From the NCBI GenBank assembly GCA_902578385.1, contig CACHCR010000006.1, positions 1 to 64,000 of the forward strand: a stretch of DNA of 64,000 bases. Direction: 5' to 3'. This DNA is from an uncultured Fidelibacterota bacterium (GTDB lineage: Bacteria; Fidelibacterota; Marinisomatia; Marinisomatales; Marinisomataceae). Both the position numbers and the translations under genes were made by a program. The notes beneath the pieces were generated by a model. That model did no database searches, was not told the DNA's origin, and saw only the letters and a program-made list of their open reading frames with translations. Every line of letters starts with the position of its first letter. Position 1 is the stretch's first letter. Positions 25,257 through 33,509 of the stretch are shown here, one piece after another.

Positions 25257-25264
25257 TATTTTCC

Positions 25265-25293
25265 TTGAATACTTATTAATCGATGTTTAAACT
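25265..25293 (+). promoter_or_regulatory. candidate promoter for the aromatic leader and operon
   Basis: A TTGAAT box (25265-25270) and a TAAACT box (25288-25293) are separated by 17 bases, matching sigma-70-type consensus at four of six positions each. Transcription would begin near 25300, at or beside the ATG of the leader ORF, which lacks a Shine-Dalgarno, so leaderless translation is possible. Boxes this loose occur by chance in AT-rich DNA. The main support is positional: a promoter must lie upstream of the terminator at 25386, as no space exists after it. Confidence 0.35.
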
Positions 25294-25299
25294 ACTTTA

Positions 25300-25359
25300 A
25301 TGAGCAAATTTTATAACTACTATTTTTATTTTAGAAGCAGGGGGAATGTAGACGCCTAA
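25300..25359 (+). CDS. Phe/Tyr-rich attenuator leader peptide of the aromatic amino-acid operon
   Basis: A 19-codon ORF reading MSKFYNYYFYFRSRGNVDA and ending in TAA at 25357-25359. Codons 4-11 are Phe, Tyr, Asn, Tyr, Tyr, Phe, Tyr, Phe, so seven of eight encode the two end products of the operon that begins 72 bases further on. Ribosomes starved of charged tRNA-Phe or tRNA-Tyr would stall here. The ORF is followed by a terminator with an alternative pairing partner inside the ORF itself (25337-25344). This is the arrangement of the classical pheA, trp and his leaders. No Shine-Dalgarno is visible, and AT-rich DNA favours Phe and Tyr codons, which is the main caution. Confidence 0.75.
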   Translation: MSKFYNYYFYFRSRGNVDA

Positions 25360-25394
25360 CGATAAATTTATATCAATTCTACACGAACCCTAGC
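25337..25394 (+). promoter_or_regulatory. candidate antiterminator structure
   Basis: Two nested helices can form. The outer one pairs 25337-25343 (GCAGGGG) with 25388-25394 (CCCTAGC) with one A-A mismatch and one G-U pair. The inner one pairs 25347-25352 (TGTAGA) with 25378-25383 (TCTACA) perfectly. The small internal loop GAA / CGAA separates them, so they could stack. The outer helix uses seven of the nine bases of the terminator's 5' arm, so the structures exclude each other. A ribosome at the leader stop codon would cover about 25340-25370, blocking this fold. Pairing was found by eye; no energies were computed. Confidence 0.55.
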
Positions 25395-25417
25395 AAAACC
25401 CGCTAGGGTTTTTTGTT
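25386..25417 (+). terminator. intrinsic terminator (attenuator) before the aromatic operon
   Basis: A perfect nine-base-pair stem, AACCCTAGC (25386-25394) with GCTAGGGTT (25402-25410), closes a seven-base loop and runs into TTTTGTT. It lies 130 bases past the upstream stop codon but only eight bases before the GGAGGAA ribosome-binding site of the next gene. That position fits an attenuator rather than an ordinary end-of-gene terminator. Confidence 0.9.
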
Positions 25418-25431
25418 ATATGGAGGAAATT

Positions 25432-25692
25432 ATGAATGAAAAAATATTAAAAAACAGAGATAGAATAGATAATGCTGATGAACAAATCTTTGATTTACTA
25501 TTAGAAAGGTTGGATGCAGTAACAGCCATTGGTCATATAAAAAAGCAAGAAGGTTTACCCGTTCTAGATCAAGAACGAGAAAATGCAATTTATGCTAAAA
25601 TTGATGCCAGGTTCTCATCTGCAGAAGCAGGTTTCTTAAAATCAATTTATCAGTCAATTATCTCAGAATCAAAAAAAGTAGAGGAGCTATAA
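25432..25692 (+). CDS. chorismate mutase, AroQ class
   Basis: An 86-residue helical protein that converts chorismate to prephenate. It aligns with the E. coli chorismate mutase domain without gaps at a constant offset of two through the first 50 residues, keeping the active-site set Arg9, Arg26, Lys37, Asp46, Arg49 and Glu50; Glu84 takes the place of E. coli Gln88, as in yeast. It should therefore be active alone. ATG 25432 is chosen because GGAGGAA lies four bases before it. It is the first gene of the operon and is coupled by TAATG to a class II DAHP synthase, a pair that in Mycobacterium forms a regulatory complex. Confidence 0.93.
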   Translation: MNEKILKNRDRIDNADEQIFDLLLERLDAVTAIGHIKKQEGLPVLDQERENAIYAKIDARFSSAEAGFLKSIYQSIISESKKVEEL

Positions 25693-27032
25693 TGTCAAAG
25701 TGGTCTAAAGATTCTTGGAAAAACTTCAAGATTAAACATATCCCTCAATACAATGACCCAGATCAGCTTGAAAAAGCATTAAAAAAACTAGAAGGATTTC
25801 CACCATTAGTGTTTGCTGGAGAATGTAGAAATTTAAAGCAAGATCTTGCAAAGGCTAGCAAAGGAGATGCCTTTTTAGTTCAGGGTGGAGATTGTGCAGA
25901 AAGCTTTAAGGAATTTAATGCAAATAATATTAGAGATACTTTCAGGGTCATTTTGCAAATGAGTGCTGTTATCACAGCAAAGCTTAAAGTTCCCGTTATT
26001 AAGCTTGGAAGAATTGCAGGACAATTTGCAAAGCCAAGATCTTCTGATTTAGAAACTAAAGATGGAAAAACTTTAAATAGTTATTACGGAGATTCTATTA
26101 ATAGTATTGAATTTTCCGAGGAAAAAAGAGAACCGAATCCTGCACGTTTATTAAGAGCATACTCTCAATCTGCTTCCACTTTAAACCTACTTAGGTCATT
26201 TGCTCAAGGAGGTTTTGCTAACTTGCGAAAAGTGAATTCATGGAATATGGGATTTGTTAAGGCAAGTAAAGAAGGAAAGAAGTATGAAAAAATTGCAGCA
26301 AAAATTAATGAATATTTAGATTTTATGGATGCTGTAGGAGTAAATACATCTACTGTAATAGACTTAAATACCGTTGAGTTTTTTACCAGCCATGAAGGAC
26401 TTCACTTACCATATGAAGCTGCATTAACTCGAGTAGATTCACTAACAAATGAAGTGTATTGTACATCAGCACACTTTATATGGATTGGAGATAGAACGCG
26501 CTTTATTGATAGTGCACACGTAGAATTTTGTAGAGGAATAAGCAATCCAATTGGAATTAAATGTGGTCCTAGTCTTGATCCAGATGAATTAGTTAAAATT
26601 ATTGAAACAATCAATCCAGCAAATGAACCTGGAAAGATTTCATTAATTTTTAGATATGGTGAAGAAAGTATTGATAAACATTTACCAGGACTGGTTGAGA
26701 CTATAACAAAAAATAACAAAAATGTTTTATGGATTTCAGATCCTATGCATGGAAATACTGTAAAGTCTTCATCTGGTTTAAAAACTCGTGATTTTAACTC
26801 TTTGCTTAATGAAACATCGAAAGCTATTAAAATTCTTAAAGACAGAGGATGTCATTTAGGAGGAATTCACTTGGAAATGACAGGTCAAAATGTAACTGAA
26901 TGTACTGGAGGAATTTATAAAGTAAGTGATGATGATTTAAATTCAAGATATCATACTCATTGTGATCCAAGATTAAATGCTAATCAAGCGCTAGAACTCT
27001 CTTTCAATATTGCTGAGGAGTTGCAAGGTTAA
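25692..27032 (+). CDS. aroG: class II 3-deoxy-7-phosphoheptulonate (DAHP) synthase
   Basis: First enzyme of the shikimate pathway, condensing phosphoenolpyruvate and erythrose 4-phosphate. At 446 residues it is the plant/mycobacterial class II type. Visible are FAGECRNL, the metal-ligand Cys68 in VQGGDCAESF, KLGRIAGQFAKPRS, WIGDRTR, SDPMHGNT with a ligand His, GIHLEMTGQNVTECTGG with a ligand Glu, and the terminal DPRLNANQALEL with a ligand Asp. Feedback in this class comes from N-terminal elements and from association with chorismate mutase, which is encoded immediately upstream. Its stop is followed directly by the aroA start. Confidence 0.96.
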   Translation: MSKWSKDSWKNFKIKHIPQYNDPDQLEKALKKLEGFPPLVFAGECRNLKQDLAKASKGDAFLVQGGDCAESFKEFNANNIRDTFRVILQMSAVITAKLKVPVIKLGRIAGQFAKPRSSDLETKDGKTLNSYYGDSINSIEFSEEKREPNPARLLRAYSQSASTLNLLRSFAQGGFANLRKVNSWNMGFVKASKEGKKYEKIAAKINEYLDFMDAVGVNTSTVIDLNTVEFFTSHEGLHLPYEAALTRVDSLTNEVYCTSAHFIWIGDRTRFIDSAHVEFCRGISNPIGIKCGPSLDPDELVKIIETINPANEPGKISLIFRYGEESIDKHLPGLVETITKNNKNVLWISDPMHGNTVKSSSGLKTRDFNSLLNETSKAIKILKDRGCHLGGIHLEMTGQNVTECTGGIYKVSDDDLNSRYHTHCDPRLNANQALELSFNIAEELQG

Positions 27033-28283
27033 ATGCTAGTTCAAGGTGCATTACAACTTCCAGGAGATAAATCTATTTCTCATCGAGCAATTATGCTTTC
27101 AGCTATAGCTGATGGAGTTAGTTGTGTTAGAAATTTAAATGATGGAGCTGATCTTCAGTCAACAATTAATATTTTAAGAGATTGTGGAGCTTCAATTGAG
27201 CAAAAAGAGGATGAGATAATAATAAATGGTAAAAAACTTCATTCTCCATCCAAAGATCTTGATTGTGGCAATTCAGGAACCACTACTAGACTTGTTTCAG
27301 GACTATTATCATCTCAAAAATTAATATTTACATTAACTGGAGATGAATCATTGTCAAAAAGACCAATGAAGCGAATAGTTACACCTTTAGTAGGAATGGG
27401 CTGTAAAATTTCCTCAAATAACGGATTATTGCCTTTGTCAATAGATGCTTCTGATGGTATTACAGCTATAGACTATGATATGACAGTTGCAAGTGCACAA
27501 GTCAAATCATGTATACTTTTTTCAGCTTTAGGAGGAAATAATATATCAATTATTAATGAGATTATTCCGACCAGAAATCATTCAGAAATTATGTTAAAAA
27601 ACATGGGAGTATCAATTGAAAGAGAAGGAAGTAAGATTATAGTTCATCCACTTAAATCAAAGTTAAAGTCGATTGATATTTCTGTACCCTCTGATCCATC
27701 TTCAGCAGCTTTTTTTGCTGCTTTAGCAGTTATTAATAATAATTCAAATTTAAAGTTAACCAATGTTTTACTTAACGAGTCTAGAATTGGATTTGTTGAA
27801 GTTTTAAATCAAATGAATTGTTTAATATCAAAATCAAATGAATCAGTTCACAATGGTGAAAAAGTAGGAGATTTAACTATTAGCTCATCTAACCTTAAAG
27901 CAACAGAAATAAAATCAGAAACTATACCATCAATTATAGATGAAGTACCAATATTAGCGGTTGTAGCGGCTTTTGCAAATGGTACGACAGTTTTTAAAAA
28001 TGTAGAAGAGTTAAAATATAAAGAATGTGATAGATTAAGAGCAATTATACATAATCTTGAAGCATTTGGAATCAAGGCATATGAAAAAAATAATGATTTG
28101 TTTGTCGAGGGAGGAAAGGTAAAAAGAATGCCTAAAATAACTACGTTTGATGATCATAGAATTGCTATGGCATTCACAATTTTAAGCCTTACTTCTTTTA
28201 AAAAATATGAGCTCGATAACAGGTCATGTGTGGATATTTCATTACCAAATTTCTTCAATTACCTAAGTGAGATTACCAAATGA
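27033..28283 (+). CDS. aroA: 3-phosphoshikimate 1-carboxyvinyltransferase (EPSP synthase)
   Basis: Sixth step of the shikimate pathway, adding the enolpyruvyl group of phosphoenolpyruvate to shikimate 3-phosphate. The 416-residue protein begins almost at the first conserved motif, LPGDKSISHRAIMLSAIADG. It also has DCGNSGTTTRLVSGLL, the RPMKRI segment, SAQVKSCILF, DPSSAAFF, DEVPILAV, KECDRL and DDHRIAMAF. The GDKSISHR and GNSGTT blocks contain the substrate-binding Lys and Ser. There is no gap to aroG and a four-base overlap with aroE, consistent with one long transcript. Confidence 0.97.
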   Translation: MLVQGALQLPGDKSISHRAIMLSAIADGVSCVRNLNDGADLQSTINILRDCGASIEQKEDEIIINGKKLHSPSKDLDCGNSGTTTRLVSGLLSSQKLIFTLTGDESLSKRPMKRIVTPLVGMGCKISSNNGLLPLSIDASDGITAIDYDMTVASAQVKSCILFSALGGNNISIINEIIPTRNHSEIMLKNMGVSIEREGSKIIVHPLKSKLKSIDISVPSDPSSAAFFAALAVINNNSNLKLTNVLLNESRIGFVEVLNQMNCLISKSNESVHNGEKVGDLTISSSNLKATEIKSETIPSIIDEVPILAVVAAFANGTTVFKNVEELKYKECDRLRAIIHNLEAFGIKAYEKNNDLFVEGGKVKRMPKITTFDDHRIAMAFTILSLTSFKKYELDNRSCVDISLPNFFNYLSEITK

Positions 28284-29098
28284 AATTTGCAGTTATAGGA
28301 AATCCAATTGAAAAAAGTTTAAGCCCAGAGCTTCATGAAATTCTTTATGAAAAGCTTAATATTTTGAACTGTTCTTTTGAAAAAATTCATATTGAAAATG
28401 ATGAATTAGATAATTTTTTTAACAATGATTTTGATTTATTTAATGGAATTAATGTTACGATACCTTTCAAAAGTGCGGTGGTAAAATTTTTAGATTTTAT
28501 CGACGATGAGGCAAAAATATTAGGTAATATCAATTGTATTTCAAAATCAAATAATATGATTTGTGGATTTAATACTGATAAATATGGTTTTGATATGTTA
28601 TTAAATAAAAATGGTATATCTATTCAGGGAAGTAGTTGTATTGTTCTTGGCGCTGGATCATCTGCCAAAACTGTGGTTAAGTCTTTAATTGATCAAGGAG
28701 CTAATAAGATTGTCATCAAAAATAGATCAATCGATAATGCTCGTGACCTCCTACATTTTGCACATAATCTAGGTTTTAAAAATATAGAATTATTTAATTC
28801 TGATTTTTCAAATTTTGATGTTGCAATAAATACTACTCCAATAGGAATGTATAAAGATGATAAAGATAATTTTTTTGATATTCCCGTTGGTAGAAATACC
28901 TCATTAATAGACCTTATTTATACATCTAAAGAAACTTTGTTCTTGAAAAAATTTGATAAAAGCTCCCAAAAAGTCAATGGTCTTGATATGTTTATTTTTC
29001 AAGCATTGAAGTCTATTGAAATTTGGAGAGAAACTAACTATAATTTGGGTTCACAAATTGAATCTGTGAAAAAACAATTGGAGAAAATAAAATGTTAA
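28280..29098 (+). CDS. aroE: shikimate dehydrogenase
   Basis: Reduces 3-dehydroshikimate to shikimate with NADPH. The 272-residue protein has the N-terminal substrate-binding domain with VIGNPIEKSLSPELHE and NVTIPFKSAV (catalytic Lys), FNTDKYGF, then a Rossmann domain with GAGSSAKTVVKSL, NTTPIGMY and the C-terminal NGLDMFIFQALKSIEIW. Its ATGA start overlaps aroA and it overlaps aroC by seven bases. It is an ordinary member of the family and nothing appears truncated. Confidence 0.96.
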   Translation: MKFAVIGNPIEKSLSPELHEILYEKLNILNCSFEKIHIENDELDNFFNNDFDLFNGINVTIPFKSAVVKFLDFIDDEAKILGNINCISKSNNMICGFNTDKYGFDMLLNKNGISIQGSSCIVLGAGSSAKTVVKSLIDQGANKIVIKNRSIDNARDLLHFAHNLGFKNIELFNSDFSNFDVAINTTPIGMYKDDKDNFFDIPVGRNTSLIDLIYTSKETLFLKKFDKSSQKVNGLDMFIFQALKSIEIWRETNYNLGSQIESVKKQLEKIKC

Positions 29099-30252
29099 AA
29101 AAAATATCATACATGACTGCTGGTGAATCGCATGGAAAAGGTTTGATAGGTATTATTGAAGGAATACCTGCCGGTCTTCAGCTAACTGAAGAATACATTG
29201 CAATTGACCTTTTAAGAAGAATGCAAGGTCATGGTAGAGGAAAAAGAATGAAAATAGAAAAAGATTTTGCAGAAATTTTTTCAGGAGTTCGTCATGAACA
29301 TACTCTTGGTTCTCCAATTTCTCTAATTATCAAAAATTTAGATTGGGTTAACTGGGAAGATAGAATGGCTGTTGGAAAACCTAAAAAAGAACATAAGAAG
29401 GTTACTATGCCTCGTCCTGGACATGCTGATTTAGCTGGTATGATGAAATACGACTTTGATGACATTAGAAATGTATTAGAAAGATCTTCAGCGAGAGAAA
29501 CTGCTATGAGAGTTGCAATAGGTGCAATATGCAGAAAATTACTTGAAGAGGTTGGAATATCTATTGGAAGTAGAGTTTATCAAATTCATGATGTAGTAGA
29601 TTCTGATGAAGTCGATTTATCTTTGACCATGTCAAAATTAAATGATTTAGCCGACAAGTCATCAGTGAGATGCCTTAATAAGGATGCTGAAAATAGAATG
29701 ATTAATGTAATCGATGAAGCAAAAAGTAATGGTGATTCTGTTGGTGGTTCATTTGAAGTTATTGCCAAGGGAATGCCATATGGCCTAGGAAGTTATATAA
29801 ATGCTGATGGGAAGCTTCAAGCAAGGATCACTCAAGCAATGATGTCTGTCAATGCTTTCAAAGGTGTAGAAGTAGGAGCTGGATTTGCTTCATCTGCAGT
29901 ATTTGGTAGTGAGCTTCACGACGAAATTTTATTTGAAAATGAAAAGATTACTCGTTCAAGAAATAATGCTGGAGGAATTGAAGGCGGAATGAGTAATGCT
30001 CAACCTATTCATGTTAAAGTAAGCATGAAACCTATCTCAACTCTTATAAAACCGCTGAGATCAATAGATCTTAACACGATGGAACCTAAGCTTGCGCATA
30101 AAGAAAGAACTGACTCTTGTGCCGTTCCAGCTGCATCTATTATTGGGGAAAGCATGCTTGCAATTGTTCTTGCAGATGCATTGCTTGAAAAATTTGGTGG
30201 AGATAGCATTAAACAGTTAAAAAAACATATTAAAAGCAGTGGAAAATATTAA
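29092..30252 (+). CDS. aroC: chorismate synthase
   Basis: Last common step, converting EPSP to chorismate with reduced FMN as catalytic cofactor. The 386-residue protein has the signature blocks TAGESHGKGLIGIIEGIPAG, MQGHGRGKRMKIE, SGVRHEHTLGSPI, MPRPGHADLAGMMKY, RNVLERSSARETAMRVA and RNNAGGIEGGMSNA. It overlaps aroE by seven bases upstream and aroK by 14 bases downstream. Confidence 0.97.
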   Translation: MLKKISYMTAGESHGKGLIGIIEGIPAGLQLTEEYIAIDLLRRMQGHGRGKRMKIEKDFAEIFSGVRHEHTLGSPISLIIKNLDWVNWEDRMAVGKPKKEHKKVTMPRPGHADLAGMMKYDFDDIRNVLERSSARETAMRVAIGAICRKLLEEVGISIGSRVYQIHDVVDSDEVDLSLTMSKLNDLADKSSVRCLNKDAENRMINVIDEAKSNGDSVGGSFEVIAKGMPYGLGSYINADGKLQARITQAMMSVNAFKGVEVGAGFASSAVFGSELHDEILFENEKITRSRNNAGGIEGGMSNAQPIHVKVSMKPISTLIKPLRSIDLNTMEPKLAHKERTDSCAVPAASIIGESMLAIVLADALLEKFGGDSIKQLKKHIKSSGKY

Positions 30253-30748
30253 TCAACTATACCTTATAGGAATGATGGGTTCTGGAAAGTCTTCGACGGG
30301 AAAAACTCTTTCTTTGATTCTAAATTGGGACTTTATTGATATTGATAATGAAATTTCAAGAACTCATAATTCAACTATAAATGAGCTGTTCTTAGATGGA
30401 GAAAAACGCTTTAGAGAGATAGAGTTTCAAGAGCTTAAAAAGCACTCTTTGAGAAATAAGACTATTTTTGCTGTAGGGGGTGGAGCTGTAACTCATCAAG
30501 ATAGTTATGACATGCTTAGCTCCAAAAATTGCATTTATTTAAAAACATCCAATAGTATTTTATTGGATAGACTTAAGGATGATAATTCTCGACCACTATT
30601 AAACGTGAAAAATAAAAGTGAAGTATTAAACCAAATTATGAATCAAAGAGAGCAAAAGTATGTTGCTTTAAGTAAGAATGAAGTGATTACTGATAACCAG
30701 TCAATTCAAGATAATTGTAATCAAATTATGGAGATAATTAATGGCTAA
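30239..30748 (+). CDS. aroK: shikimate kinase
   Basis: Phosphorylates shikimate at O3 with ATP. The 169-residue P-loop kinase starts at GTG 30239, inside the 3' end of aroC, so that the Walker A motif GMMGSGKS falls at residues 11-18 as in most AroK. DIDNEISRTHNSTINELF (shikimate-binding Asp), the FREIEFQEL Arg-Glu block, the GGGAV loop and the lid RPLLN follow. No ATG gives an acceptable start, which supports GTG. It overlaps aroB by eight bases. Confidence 0.93.
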   Translation: MENINQLYLIGMMGSGKSSTGKTLSLILNWDFIDIDNEISRTHNSTINELFLDGEKRFREIEFQELKKHSLRNKTIFAVGGGAVTHQDSYDMLSSKNCIYLKTSNSILLDRLKDDNSRPLLNVKNKSEVLNQIMNQREQKYVALSKNEVITDNQSIQDNCNQIMEIING

Positions 30749-31808
30749 TAAGGTTAAAGTCGATTTAGGAAACAATAGTTACAATATAACTATGATTGAA
30801 GATTTTAAAGATTCTGTTAAAAGGTTTGCGAGCTCAACTGAATCTCAATGCATGTTAATTACACAAGAGAATATCTTTGATCTTTATAAAAATCAATTTA
30901 ATGATCTATCAAATATTTCAAATGTAAATATTTTTTTGATTGATGAAGGCGAAAAAGCAAAATCATTCGATTCAACCATATCTATTGTAAATGAAATGGC
31001 TGATAAGCGTTTTGATAGATCTTCTTTAGTTTTAGCAATTGGAGGAGGTGTTGTTGGTGATATAGCAGGCTTTGCTGCATCAATTTATATGAGAGGTGTT
31101 AAGTATATTCAATATCCAACAACTTTACTGGCAATGGTAGACTCTTCAATCGGAGGAAAGACAGGAATTAATTTAGAAGATGGTAAAAATTTAGTTGGAA
31201 GAATATATCAGCCCATAGCAGTAGAAATTGATACTAATTTTTTATCAACTTTGCCAAAAAGAGAGTTAAATGCAGCTTTAGCTGAGGTTGTAAAATATGG
31301 ATTTATTTATGATAGAGAGTTCTTTGATTATATAGTCAACAATATCTCTGAGATTAATAATAGAAATCTTGATGTTATTCAAGAAGTGATTACCCAATGT
31401 TGCGAAATAAAAAGTGATATTGTTAGTGAAGATGAAAATGAAGATGAACTTAGAATGATCTTAAATTTTGGGCATACTATTGGTCACGCAATAGAGTCAT
31501 TTACAAAATATGAAGAATTATTACATGGTGAAGCAATTTTTTATGGAATGAAGTGTGCATTGTATTTGTCAAATAAATTTGGAGATTTGAATAATGATGA
31601 TTACAAACAATCTTGTCAATTGTTATCTAAGTTTGATTTACCAAGTCTTAAAATCGATAACAAAGATATTTTTATTAACTTTGTAAAAAATGATAAAAAA
31701 TTTAGAGGAGAAAACATAAGATTTATTTTACTGGATGAAATTGGAAAATCTAGAATTAGCGAAGATATTTCATTTGATCAAATCAAAGAAAGTTTGAGTA
31801 CACTATGA
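30741..31808 (+). CDS. aroB: 3-dehydroquinate synthase
   Basis: Second shikimate step: NAD+- and metal-dependent cyclisation of DAHP to 3-dehydroquinate. The 355-residue protein has IDEGEKAKSFDS, the glycine-rich GGGVVGDIAGFAASIYMRG, PTTLLAMVDSSIGGKTGIN and the metal-ligand segments (LAEVVKYGF; NFGHTIGHAIES; LHGEAI). The length is typical. It is coupled to aroK by an eight-base overlap and to aroQ by ATGA. Confidence 0.97.
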   Translation: MANKVKVDLGNNSYNITMIEDFKDSVKRFASSTESQCMLITQENIFDLYKNQFNDLSNISNVNIFLIDEGEKAKSFDSTISIVNEMADKRFDRSSLVLAIGGGVVGDIAGFAASIYMRGVKYIQYPTTLLAMVDSSIGGKTGINLEDGKNLVGRIYQPIAVEIDTNFLSTLPKRELNAALAEVVKYGFIYDREFFDYIVNNISEINNRNLDVIQEVITQCCEIKSDIVSEDENEDELRMILNFGHTIGHAIESFTKYEELLHGEAIFYGMKCALYLSNKFGDLNNDDYKQSCQLLSKFDLPSLKIDNKDIFINFVKNDKKFRGENIRFILLDEIGKSRISEDISFDQIKESLSTL

Positions 31809-32233
31809 AGTTAATTATCATTAATGGACCAAATCTAAATTTACTTGGAGAAAGAGAGCCAGAAATTTATGGAAGTGAAACTCTTGAGCAAGTTAATAAA
31901 TGGATTGAGAATCATGAATTGTGTAAAAATTTAGAACTTGAATTTTTTCAATCAAACTCGGAAGGTGAACTAATAGATTTCTTACATTCAAAAAGAAAAA
32001 GTGTAGATTATTGTATTTTAAATGCAGGAGCATTAACTCATTATTCTTACGCATTAAGAGATGCTATAATTGGTACCCAAATTCCGACAGTAGAAGTTCA
32101 TTTATCAAATATTTATAAACGAGAAAATTTTAGAAAAACATCTGTTATAAAAAATGTTTGTATAGCTCAATTTTATGGTGAGGGCAAACAGAGTTACATT
32201 AATGGCATTAAGTATATTTTGGAGAAGAAATAA
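31805..32233 (+). CDS. aroQ: 3-dehydroquinate dehydratase, type II
   Basis: Third shikimate step, by trans dehydration of 3-dehydroquinate. This is the 142-residue dodecameric type II enzyme. It begins with the diagnostic INGPNLNLLGEREPEIYG (catalytic Arg and Tyr22), then QSNSEGELIDFLH, LNAGALTHYSYALRDAI, and VEVHLSNIYKRENFRKTSVI with the catalytic His. It sits between aroB and the prephenate dehydratase gene, overlapping both (ATGA and TAATG). Confidence 0.97.
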   Translation: MKLIIINGPNLNLLGEREPEIYGSETLEQVNKWIENHELCKNLELEFFQSNSEGELIDFLHSKRKSVDYCILNAGALTHYSYALRDAIIGTQIPTVEVHLSNIYKRENFRKTSVIKNVCIAQFYGEGKQSYINGIKYILEKK

Positions 32234-32799
32234 TGAAATTAGGAATTCAGGGAATTGAGGGTAGTTTTAGTGAGCAAGCAGCTAAATCATATTGTAAAAA
32301 ATTTGGAATTGAAGATTTTGAATTAAAGTATTTAATTAGTTCAATGAATGTTCTTAATAGTTTATCAGATAAGTCAATAGATACTGGTATATTTGCAATG
32401 GAAAATGCACAAGGGGGAGTGGTAATTGAAAGCGTTGAAGCATTAGCCAAAAACCAATGTGAAATTATTGATATGTTTTATGTAGAAATAAGTCAAAATT
32501 TATTAGCAATTGAAGGAGTATCAGTGGGCGATATTGAAGAAATTCATTCTCACGAACAAGCATTGAAACAATGTAAAGATTATCTTGCTGAAAAATTTTG
32601 GTCAAAGAAATTGGTTGAGCAAGATGATACTGCAAAAGCTGCACAAGATTTGGCTTCAGGCAAGCTTCCTAAGCATGTTGCAGTAATTGCGAGTAAATTT
32701 TCTGCTGAAAAGTATGGTTTAAAAATTCTTGAAAATGATATCCATGATTTAAAAAGAAATTTAACATTGTTTTTAGCTGTTAAAAGGTTGGGATCATGA
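32233..32799 (+). CDS. pheA: prephenate (or arogenate) dehydratase catalytic domain without ACT domain
   Basis: 188 residues covering only the dehydratase domain, which decarboxylates and dehydrates prephenate towards phenylalanine. Visible are GIQGIEGSFSEQAA at the start, FAMENAQGGVVIES, SHEQALKQC, and DDTAKAAQDL. The usual catalytic TRF motif is replaced by Thr178-Leu179-Phe180 near the C terminus; the essential Thr is kept. The ACT domain that gives Phe feedback in most bacterial PheA proteins is absent, and the next gene starts immediately. A sequence this divergent could prefer arogenate. Its place in the operon supports the Phe-branch role. Confidence 0.85.
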   Translation: MKLGIQGIEGSFSEQAAKSYCKKFGIEDFELKYLISSMNVLNSLSDKSIDTGIFAMENAQGGVVIESVEALAKNQCEIIDMFYVEISQNLLAIEGVSVGDIEEIHSHEQALKQCKDYLAEKFWSKKLVEQDDTAKAAQDLASGKLPKHVAVIASKFSAEKYGLKILENDIHDLKRNLTLFLAVKRLGS

Positions 32800-33509
32800 A
32801 TAAAGTTAGTATTATAGGTTTTGGTAGATTTGGGGTAATGCTCCATTCGTTGCTTTCAAAAGGCTTTGAAGTTGATGTTTATGATAAAAATTCAATAAAC
32901 AATTCGGAAATCAATGAAGTTTCTTTAGAAGAAGCATTAAATAATGAGACTATATTTATTGCAGTACCTATTAGAGACTTTGAGGATTTGATGGTTGAAA
33001 TTTCAGATAAAATTAGTCCTGGAAAAACTATAATTGATGTTTGTTCTGTCAAGGTTTTTCCAAAGCAGGTTATGATTAATAAATTGCCTACAGAAACGGA
33101 TATAATTGCAACTCATCCATTGTTTGGACCCGATTCTTTGAAAGATAGTGGTTCAGTAATGACAATGGAGTCTGTAAGAAATTCTTTTGATAGATATGAT
33201 TTCTGGAAAAATTATTTTGAAAGTCAAAATATTACTATAGAAGAAATTTCTGCTGAAGAGCATGATATGATGGCAGCTAGATCACAAGGCTTAACTCACT
33301 TTGTTGGAAGGATAATTGATGACTTTGGAACAAATCAAACAAGAATTGATACAGAAGGATATAAGGCTTTACATAAACTTGTAAATCAAACCTGCAATGA
33401 TACTTGGGAATTATTTGAAGATATCCAAAATTATAATCCTTATACTGAGAAAATGATTTCAGAATTGAATGTAAGTTTCAAAAAAATTAGCGAAATTATA
33501 GAAAAATAA
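32796..33509 (+). CDS. tyrA: prephenate/arogenate dehydrogenase
   Basis: Oxidative decarboxylation in the tyrosine branch. The 237-residue protein has the dinucleotide-binding GFGRFG at residues 8-13, an acidic residue ending strand two (VDVYD), and catalytic His107 in ATHPLFGPDS, a form close to that of plant arogenate dehydrogenases. The helical C-terminal dimerisation domain is shorter than in most TyrA and there is no ACT domain. It is the last gene of the aromatic operon, coupled by ATGA to the dehydratase gene; ten bases separate it from a small membrane protein with its own ribosome-binding site. Confidence 0.92.
   Translation: MNKVSIIGFGRFGVMLHSLLSKGFEVDVYDKNSINNSEINEVSLEEALNNETIFIAVPIRDFEDLMVEISDKISPGKTIIDVCSVKVFPKQVMINKLPTETDIIATHPLFGPDSLKDSGSVMTMESVRNSFDRYDFWKNYFESQNITIEEISAEEHDMMAARSQGLTHFVGRIIDDFGTNQTRIDTEGYKALHKLVNQTCNDTWELFEDIQNYNPYTEKMISELNVSFKKISEIIEK

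Follow-up and report, generated by a model that had tools for sequence, protein, structure and literature searches.

A putative ribosome-mediated attenuator sensing phenylalanine and tyrosine supply ahead of a complete aromatic operon in Marinimicrobia

Introduction

What governs entry of RNA polymerase into a ten-gene aromatic operon when an intrinsic terminator stands directly before its first gene? The question is raised by the window, the whole 64,000-nucleotide stretch of DNA analysed here, which is contig 6 of a 946 kb metagenome-assembled genome (MAG) of Ca. Neomarinimicrobiota (Marinimicrobia), 75.7% complete. The operon (25432–33509, plus strand), whose genes overlap or abut, encodes chorismate mutase, all seven shikimate enzymes, PheA and TyrA, and is preceded by a short open reading frame (ORF) rich in Phe and Tyr codons.

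The operon and its terminator

All ten genes lie on the plus strand: a type II chorismate mutase as first gene (25432–25692; Pfam PF01817, E 9.8e-20), a class II DAHP synthase (25692–27032; PF01474, E 8.6e-198), aroA for EPSP synthase (27033–28283; PF00275), aroE for shikimate dehydrogenase (28280–29098; PF08501/PF01488), aroC for chorismate synthase (29092–30252; PF01264), aroK for shikimate kinase (30239–30748; PF01202), aroB for dehydroquinate synthase (30741–31808; PF01761/PF24621), aroQ for dehydroquinase II (31805–32233; PF01220), pheA for prephenate dehydratase (32233–32799; PF00800) and tyrA for prephenate dehydrogenase (32796–33509; PF02153), which ends the overlapping run. With chorismate mutase, pheA, tyrA and the shikimate genes together, the operon makes the amino acids proposed below to be sensed. 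A Shine–Dalgarno sequence, GGAGG (25422–25426, plus strand), read directly from the DNA, precedes the first structural gene and is kept in most loci compared.

A separate observation concerns the history of the operon. The aroA and aroE genes of the window are 88% and 82% similar, respectively, to those of a distant clade retaining trp genes (trp+), as against 67% and 58% to those of the nearer locus L025 (L023–L035 compared), with the order of similarity reversed for DAHP synthase; recombination inside the operon is likely to lie behind this discordance between aroA/aroE (27033–29098) and DAHP synthase.

Between the short ORF and the first gene lies an intrinsic terminator (25386–25414, plus strand), formed by a perfect 9-bp stem (25386–25394/25402–25410) and a T-run, with 99.4% of alignment cells paired and three pairs changed on both sides among 18 genus-type loci. 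Only 8 nt separate it from the Shine–Dalgarno sequence, as the first-pass annotation had described for both stem and spacing, leaving no room for a promoter; its deduction that transcription enters from upstream of the terminator is supported by a promoter-like site of conserved spacing before the leader ATG. The heptamer GTTATAT (25415–25421), between terminator and Shine–Dalgarno sequence, is kept in 14 of the 18 genus-type loci, with no role found. A pairing of leader ATAAC with this heptamer, seen in a fold, was dropped, being lost in several species.

The leader open reading frame and its conservation

The leader ORF (25300–25359, plus strand) encodes MSKFYNYYFYFRSRGNVDA* in 19 codons and a stop (ATG AGC AAA TTT TAT AAC TAC TAT TTT TAT TTT AGA AGC AGG GGG AAT GTA GAC GCC TAA), with seven Phe/Tyr codons among the eight sensor codons 4–11 (25309–25332, plus strand; F Y N Y Y F Y F), the non-aromatic one being codon 6, AAC in most species. 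The ORF is thus present just as first annotated. A short ATG-initiated ORF with 7/8 Phe/Tyr codons arose in one of 5000 dinucleotide-preserving shuffles of 25257–25419, and in none when a terminator was also required (0/5000); scanning both strands, the Phe/Tyr-run ORF is unique within the 64 kb.

DAHP synthase is present in 19 of the 24 genomes of the family. The leader, both helices described below and the terminator are found at all 18 aligned genus-type loci, a set that includes the window's own locus and L103, a genus-type contig within G124, a genome of another family; in each, the leader is rich in codons for the products of the operon, as in MSKFYNYYFYFRSRGNVDA, MNNFYNFYFYFERRGTVGA, MKNFFNYYYFRSRGTVEA, MKINNNFYYYFNGRGYVGT and MKNFNYYYFYFRCKGTIGA. 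The first-pass annotation had proposed that, in such an alignment of related genomes, the terminator should be accompanied by an aromatic-rich ORF, and this is so at every locus. Changes between species in the sensor codons are mostly synonymous or exchange Phe and Tyr, with a whole-codon deletion within the run in one clade. A covariance model re-finds the element in each aligned locus and in G006, its strong matches in the genus (E 1e-19 or better) all preceding the aromatic operon; the five genus-mates that have no DAHP synthase gave no strong match, and two other matches in the genus are weak (E 0.03 and 0.1). The gene upstream of the leader varies by clade, being penicillin-acylase-like, trpA (G012 and kin) or another, and the leader stays with the aromatic operon despite these differing neighbours.

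These data bear on the simplest alternative, in which the hairpin is the terminator of the upstream penicillin-acylase-like gene, the operon has its own promoter and the short ORF is a chance occurrence. The hairpin does lie 130 nt past that gene on the same strand, and TTT and TAT codons are common in AT-rich DNA; however, so aromatic a run is rare by chance, the ORF is retained at 18/18 loci, most of its changes keeping Phe or Tyr, two clades have another gene upstream, the antiterminator covaries, and the gap before the Shine–Dalgarno sequence is only 8 nt. A chance ORF is ruled out by the shuffles together with the conservation, by which the upstream-gene terminator also appears largely refuted, so that this explanation is very improbable.

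Several genomes of the set show irregularities. In G021, the DAHP synthase gene is present only as a fragment. The G124 MAG holds a DAHP synthase of the window's genus type and one of its family type on separate contigs, C76 and C10 (L103, L117), probably through contamination. At G006:C1:263823-265144 (L018, L021), the DAHP synthase frames carry many internal stops, reflecting either frameshifts from assembly errors or a pseudogene, and the attenuator preceding them is intact.

The window's genus appears to be losing amino-acid pathways. The genus-mates G003 and G005, 93–95% complete, lack DAHP synthase altogether, and TrpE-, LeuA- and HisG-type genes gave no match in the assembled part of G000. 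A chorismate-binding enzyme (TrpE, PabB or MenF type) is not detectable in most of the genus, including several genomes 94–98% complete; Phe and Tyr therefore seem to account for all or most of what the majority of its members make from chorismate, and the sensing of those two amino acids alone makes sense.

Competing helices and folding

Two helices compete with the terminator. Helix B, with its 5' arm GGGG at 25340–25343 (plus strand), pairs with 25388–25391, positions that also belong to the 5' arm of the terminator; 98.6% of alignment cells are paired across the 18 loci, and the pair 25340/25391 is variously G-U, A-U or G-C. Helix A joins TGTAGA (25347–25352, plus strand) to TCTACA (25378–25383, plus strand), both arms being supported by a compensatory change from G-C to A-U at 25348/25382 in four species. 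Between the antiterminator arms, a weak hairpin (GATA...TATC; 25361–25374, plus strand) is predicted in most species in varying form, and is the weakest part of the element. The antiterminator thus uses the terminator's 5' arm, and its own 5' arm would be covered by a ribosome at the leader stop codon.

The first-pass annotation had described helix A, which is indeed perfect in this genome, and a longer helix pairing 25337–25343 with the terminator arm; pairing at 25337/25338 is not kept, and that register was replaced by 25340–25343/25388–25391, which is conserved and covaries across species. Its expectation of covariation in the competing helix is matched by compensatory changes there and in the terminator.

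The folding energy of the whole region is unremarkable (z = -0.71), and therefore the case rests on conservation. In most species the terminator and antiterminator folds are of near-equal energy, with their balance in the calculations depending on the ribosome, as the earlier annotation had anticipated in suggesting folds with parts of the leader masked. When a ribosome footprint is placed over the stop codon, folding probability is 1.00 for the terminator and 0.00 for the antiterminator at 18/18 loci. If the transcript is truncated ahead of the terminator's 3' arm, and so before the terminator is complete, antiterminator probability is approximately 1.00 with a stall at early or middle aromatic codons or with no ribosome, whereas a stall at the last aromatic codon leaves helix B at approximately 0.5 and a ribosome at the stop codon reduces the antiterminator to 0. 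At full-length equilibrium, about half of the species still favour the terminator when a ribosome is stalled; as with classical attenuators, the outcome must therefore depend on which structure forms first, and under the attenuation model read-through requires the antiterminator to fold first, while transcription proceeds.

The leaders of Escherichia coli pheL and pheM are Shine–Dalgarno-led and have a 1:2 pause hairpin. For the window element, whose leader has no Shine–Dalgarno-like site, a non-exhaustive search of the 18 loci for a trp-like 1:2 pause hairpin found no conserved upstream partner of the antiterminator 5' arm. In the complete absence of translation, the model predicts read-through.

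Terminator/antiterminator pairs are shared with T-box and protein-binding (TRAP- or PyrR-like) attenuators, in which case the short ORF would be incidental. The leader is, however, only ~115 nt long, with no T-box-like domain or tandem protein-binding repeats seen, and its ORF is conserved as codons, making a regulator of this kind extremely improbable. No Rfam family exceeded its threshold at the element, the only two matches in the window being tRNAs elsewhere; the best match to an amino-acid leader was Leu_leader (RF00512), at 16.5 bits against a threshold of 50 (E 0.52).

Transcription start

Ahead of the leader lie a -35-like hexamer, TTGAAT (25265–25270, plus strand), and, 17 nt downstream, a -10-like hexamer, TAAACT (25288–25293, plus strand), which together form a putative promoter. 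The -35-like site is the same in eight genus-type loci and TTGCTA/TTGCCA in six others. The -10-like site stands 6 nt before the leader ATG, a distance predicting a leaderless transcript, and lies 6–8 nt from the leader start codon for 34 of the 38 leaders compared across the phylum; a Shine–Dalgarno-like site before the leader ORF occurs in none of the 38. Because of this short spacing and the missing ribosome-binding site, the leader transcript is probably leaderless, starting at the AUG or no more than two nucleotides from it. The attenuation interpretation of the first-pass annotation is supported overall, although the likely leaderless start had escaped it. The aroR transcript of Corynebacterium glutamicum is leaderless. 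In the Sinorhizobium meliloti trpL (rnTrpL) system, the transcript carrying the attenuator starts directly at the leader ORF's ATG (PMC7298713), resembling the start suggested here, with the difference that it is a Trp leader of trpE(G) in the Alphaproteobacteria.

Proposed mechanism

Taken together, the element very probably acts as a ribosome-mediated transcription attenuator that responds to charged tRNA-Phe and tRNA-Tyr, as judged from sequence comparison. Transcription would start at or near the leader AUG, with a ribosome loading on the 5' end and trailing the polymerase. Where Phe-tRNA or Tyr-tRNA is scarce, the ribosome would be expected to stall early in codons 4–11, freeing 25340–25352 to pair with 25378–25391 and so consuming the 5' arm of the terminator; with the antiterminator formed, the polymerase would read into the ten-gene operon. 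Where both charged tRNAs are plentiful, a ribosome reaching the stop codon would cover 25340–25352 and allow the terminator to form. The size of the response, like the stalling and the start point, is what we infer around sequence parts and a conservation that are themselves observed.

Sensor codons and operon content in other families

Further afield in the phylum, the region upstream of DAHP synthase in other families yielded nine aromatic leaders with terminators before pheA-tyrA-DAHP synthase genes; the reverse strand of those 148.5 kb gave none. Further leaders stand before trpE, in several genomes at the head of a fused trpEGDCFBA-pheA-tyrA-DAHP synthase operon, and many of these trpE-led leaders carry the run YYSWYWFF, combining Tyr, Trp and Phe. 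Loci with such mixed leaders include L203–L205, L208–L210, L214, L215 and L270, together with L119, L134, L137 and L041. Helix A also varies in a compensatory manner at 20 loci from two other families, one of its pairs occurring as G-C, A-U or G-U and another changing from G-C to A-U; pairs were counted by script here because MAFFT had displaced the terminator by a single base in part of the alignment rows.

Trp codons are present in 12/12 trpE-led leaders versus 3/12 pheA-led leaders in genomes without TrpE (Fisher p 3e-4, a value that ignores shared ancestry among non-independent species), 'without TrpE' meaning none over the family cut-off; the three exceptions retain one or two Trp codons in the leader. 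In the absence of trp genes, the Trp codons of the leader have given way to codons for Leu, Gly, Arg or Phe, with TTG, CGG or GGG aligned in some trpE-less, pheA-led leaders where TGG stands elsewhere. In the trp+ members of the window's genus, a separate trp operon (trpEGDCFBA) has its own leader, GTG-KNNSKTWKWYFQVGGSVL (TWKWYF), and terminator (L157–L161, near 715–775, oriented), and the downstream Phe/Tyr leader is without Trp.

The variation bears on whether the peptide could instead act by nascent-chain arrest, of the tna or erm type, responding through the same hairpins to something other than amino-acid supply. Its tail, R-x-R-G-T-V-x-A, is fairly conserved across the genus, as an arrest peptide might be; however, these tail codons also form part of the antiterminator arms, an overlap that accounts for their conservation at the RNA level. 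The order and number of aromatic codons, moreover, differ by clade, and Tyr/Trp/Phe or Trp-rich runs track operon content, as expected of tRNA sensing and not of a fixed arrest sequence. Nascent-chain arrest is accordingly a very unlikely account, and tRNA sensing is retained as the preferred one.

Two further kinds of leader were seen. Poly-Asn leader ORFs, such as MGYTINNNNNNNNNANNNGVGALV, occur upstream of the MCGI start at 13 loci of other families (L226–L228, L230, L234, L236–L238, L243–L245, L247 and L248), together with a terminator ~30 nt ahead of an asnB-like asparagine synthetase gene; they were not found in the other loci read and are candidate Asn-sensing attenuators. At L191 (G218), in a distant family of the phylum, a leader, MDNKIYYYNYYFFGGVRGKG, and a terminator precede a DAHP synthase belonging to a different family, after which comes an aroB-like gene; the two genes were named by eye from the sequence.

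It is fairly likely that these leaders, the window's included, descend from an ancestral, phylum-wide family of leaderless attenuators whose sensor codons changed along with the fusion, splitting and gene loss of the operons: Tyr/Trp/Phe leaders would serve fused trp-phe-tyr operons, Trp codons would have disappeared once trp genes were lost (TGG becoming TTG, CGG or GGG, for example), and separate trp operons and asparagine synthetase would have Trp and poly-Asn leaders, respectively. If so, how well leader codons match pathway content could be tested directly over many species.

Related systems and significance

Amino-acid attenuators have reportedly been predicted in Bacteroidetes/Chlorobi by Vitreschak and colleagues (2004). 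Among openly licensed papers, nothing relevant was found on Bacteroidetes attenuators, and neither a Marinimicrobia/SAR406 leader peptide nor Asn leader attenuation was found reported. The claim of the first-pass annotation that no Phe/Tyr attenuator had been described in the FCB group agrees with that literature, with the qualification that a Phe-Tyr-Phe case is known in C. glutamicum. There, a Phe-Tyr-Phe leader peptide, aroR, precedes the aroF (DAHP synthase) operon, with read-through increased under Phe limitation and Tyr without effect (PMC11802643, citing Neshat 2014; PMC4046766). As an aromatic leader peptide preceding a DAHP synthase operon, aroR-aroF is the closest precedent, differing in its phylum, its unrelated leader sequence and its three aromatic codons versus seven in the window element, which moreover precedes chorismate mutase, the whole shikimate pathway and pheA/tyrA.

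By analogy, the element also seems mechanistically like pheL-pheA and trpL. E. coli pheL-pheA and pheM-pheST share with it an aromatic-codon leader (of Phe codons in E. coli), competing hairpins and a terminator adjoining the structural gene (PMC11802643, PMC1183508), but respond to Phe only and control a single gene or a synthetase operon. Attenuation of large aromatic gene clusters has likewise been predicted by Merino, in the form of putative attenuators before Phe/Tyr supraoperons of Enterococcus, Streptococcus and Desulfovibrio, which belong to other phyla and for which the available part of the paper describes no leader peptide (PMC1173090).

As far as could be found, the kind of regulation is known, and the taxon, the breadth of the operon and the match between codons and operon are new. 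Ribosome-mediated attenuation of aromatic synthesis would thereby be extended to an uncultured phylum of marine bacteria within the FCB group, with one sensor governing, in the proposed model, the whole operon from shikimate to Phe and Tyr, and the match of leader codons to gene content across the phylum may serve as a natural experiment on the gain and loss of regulatory codons.
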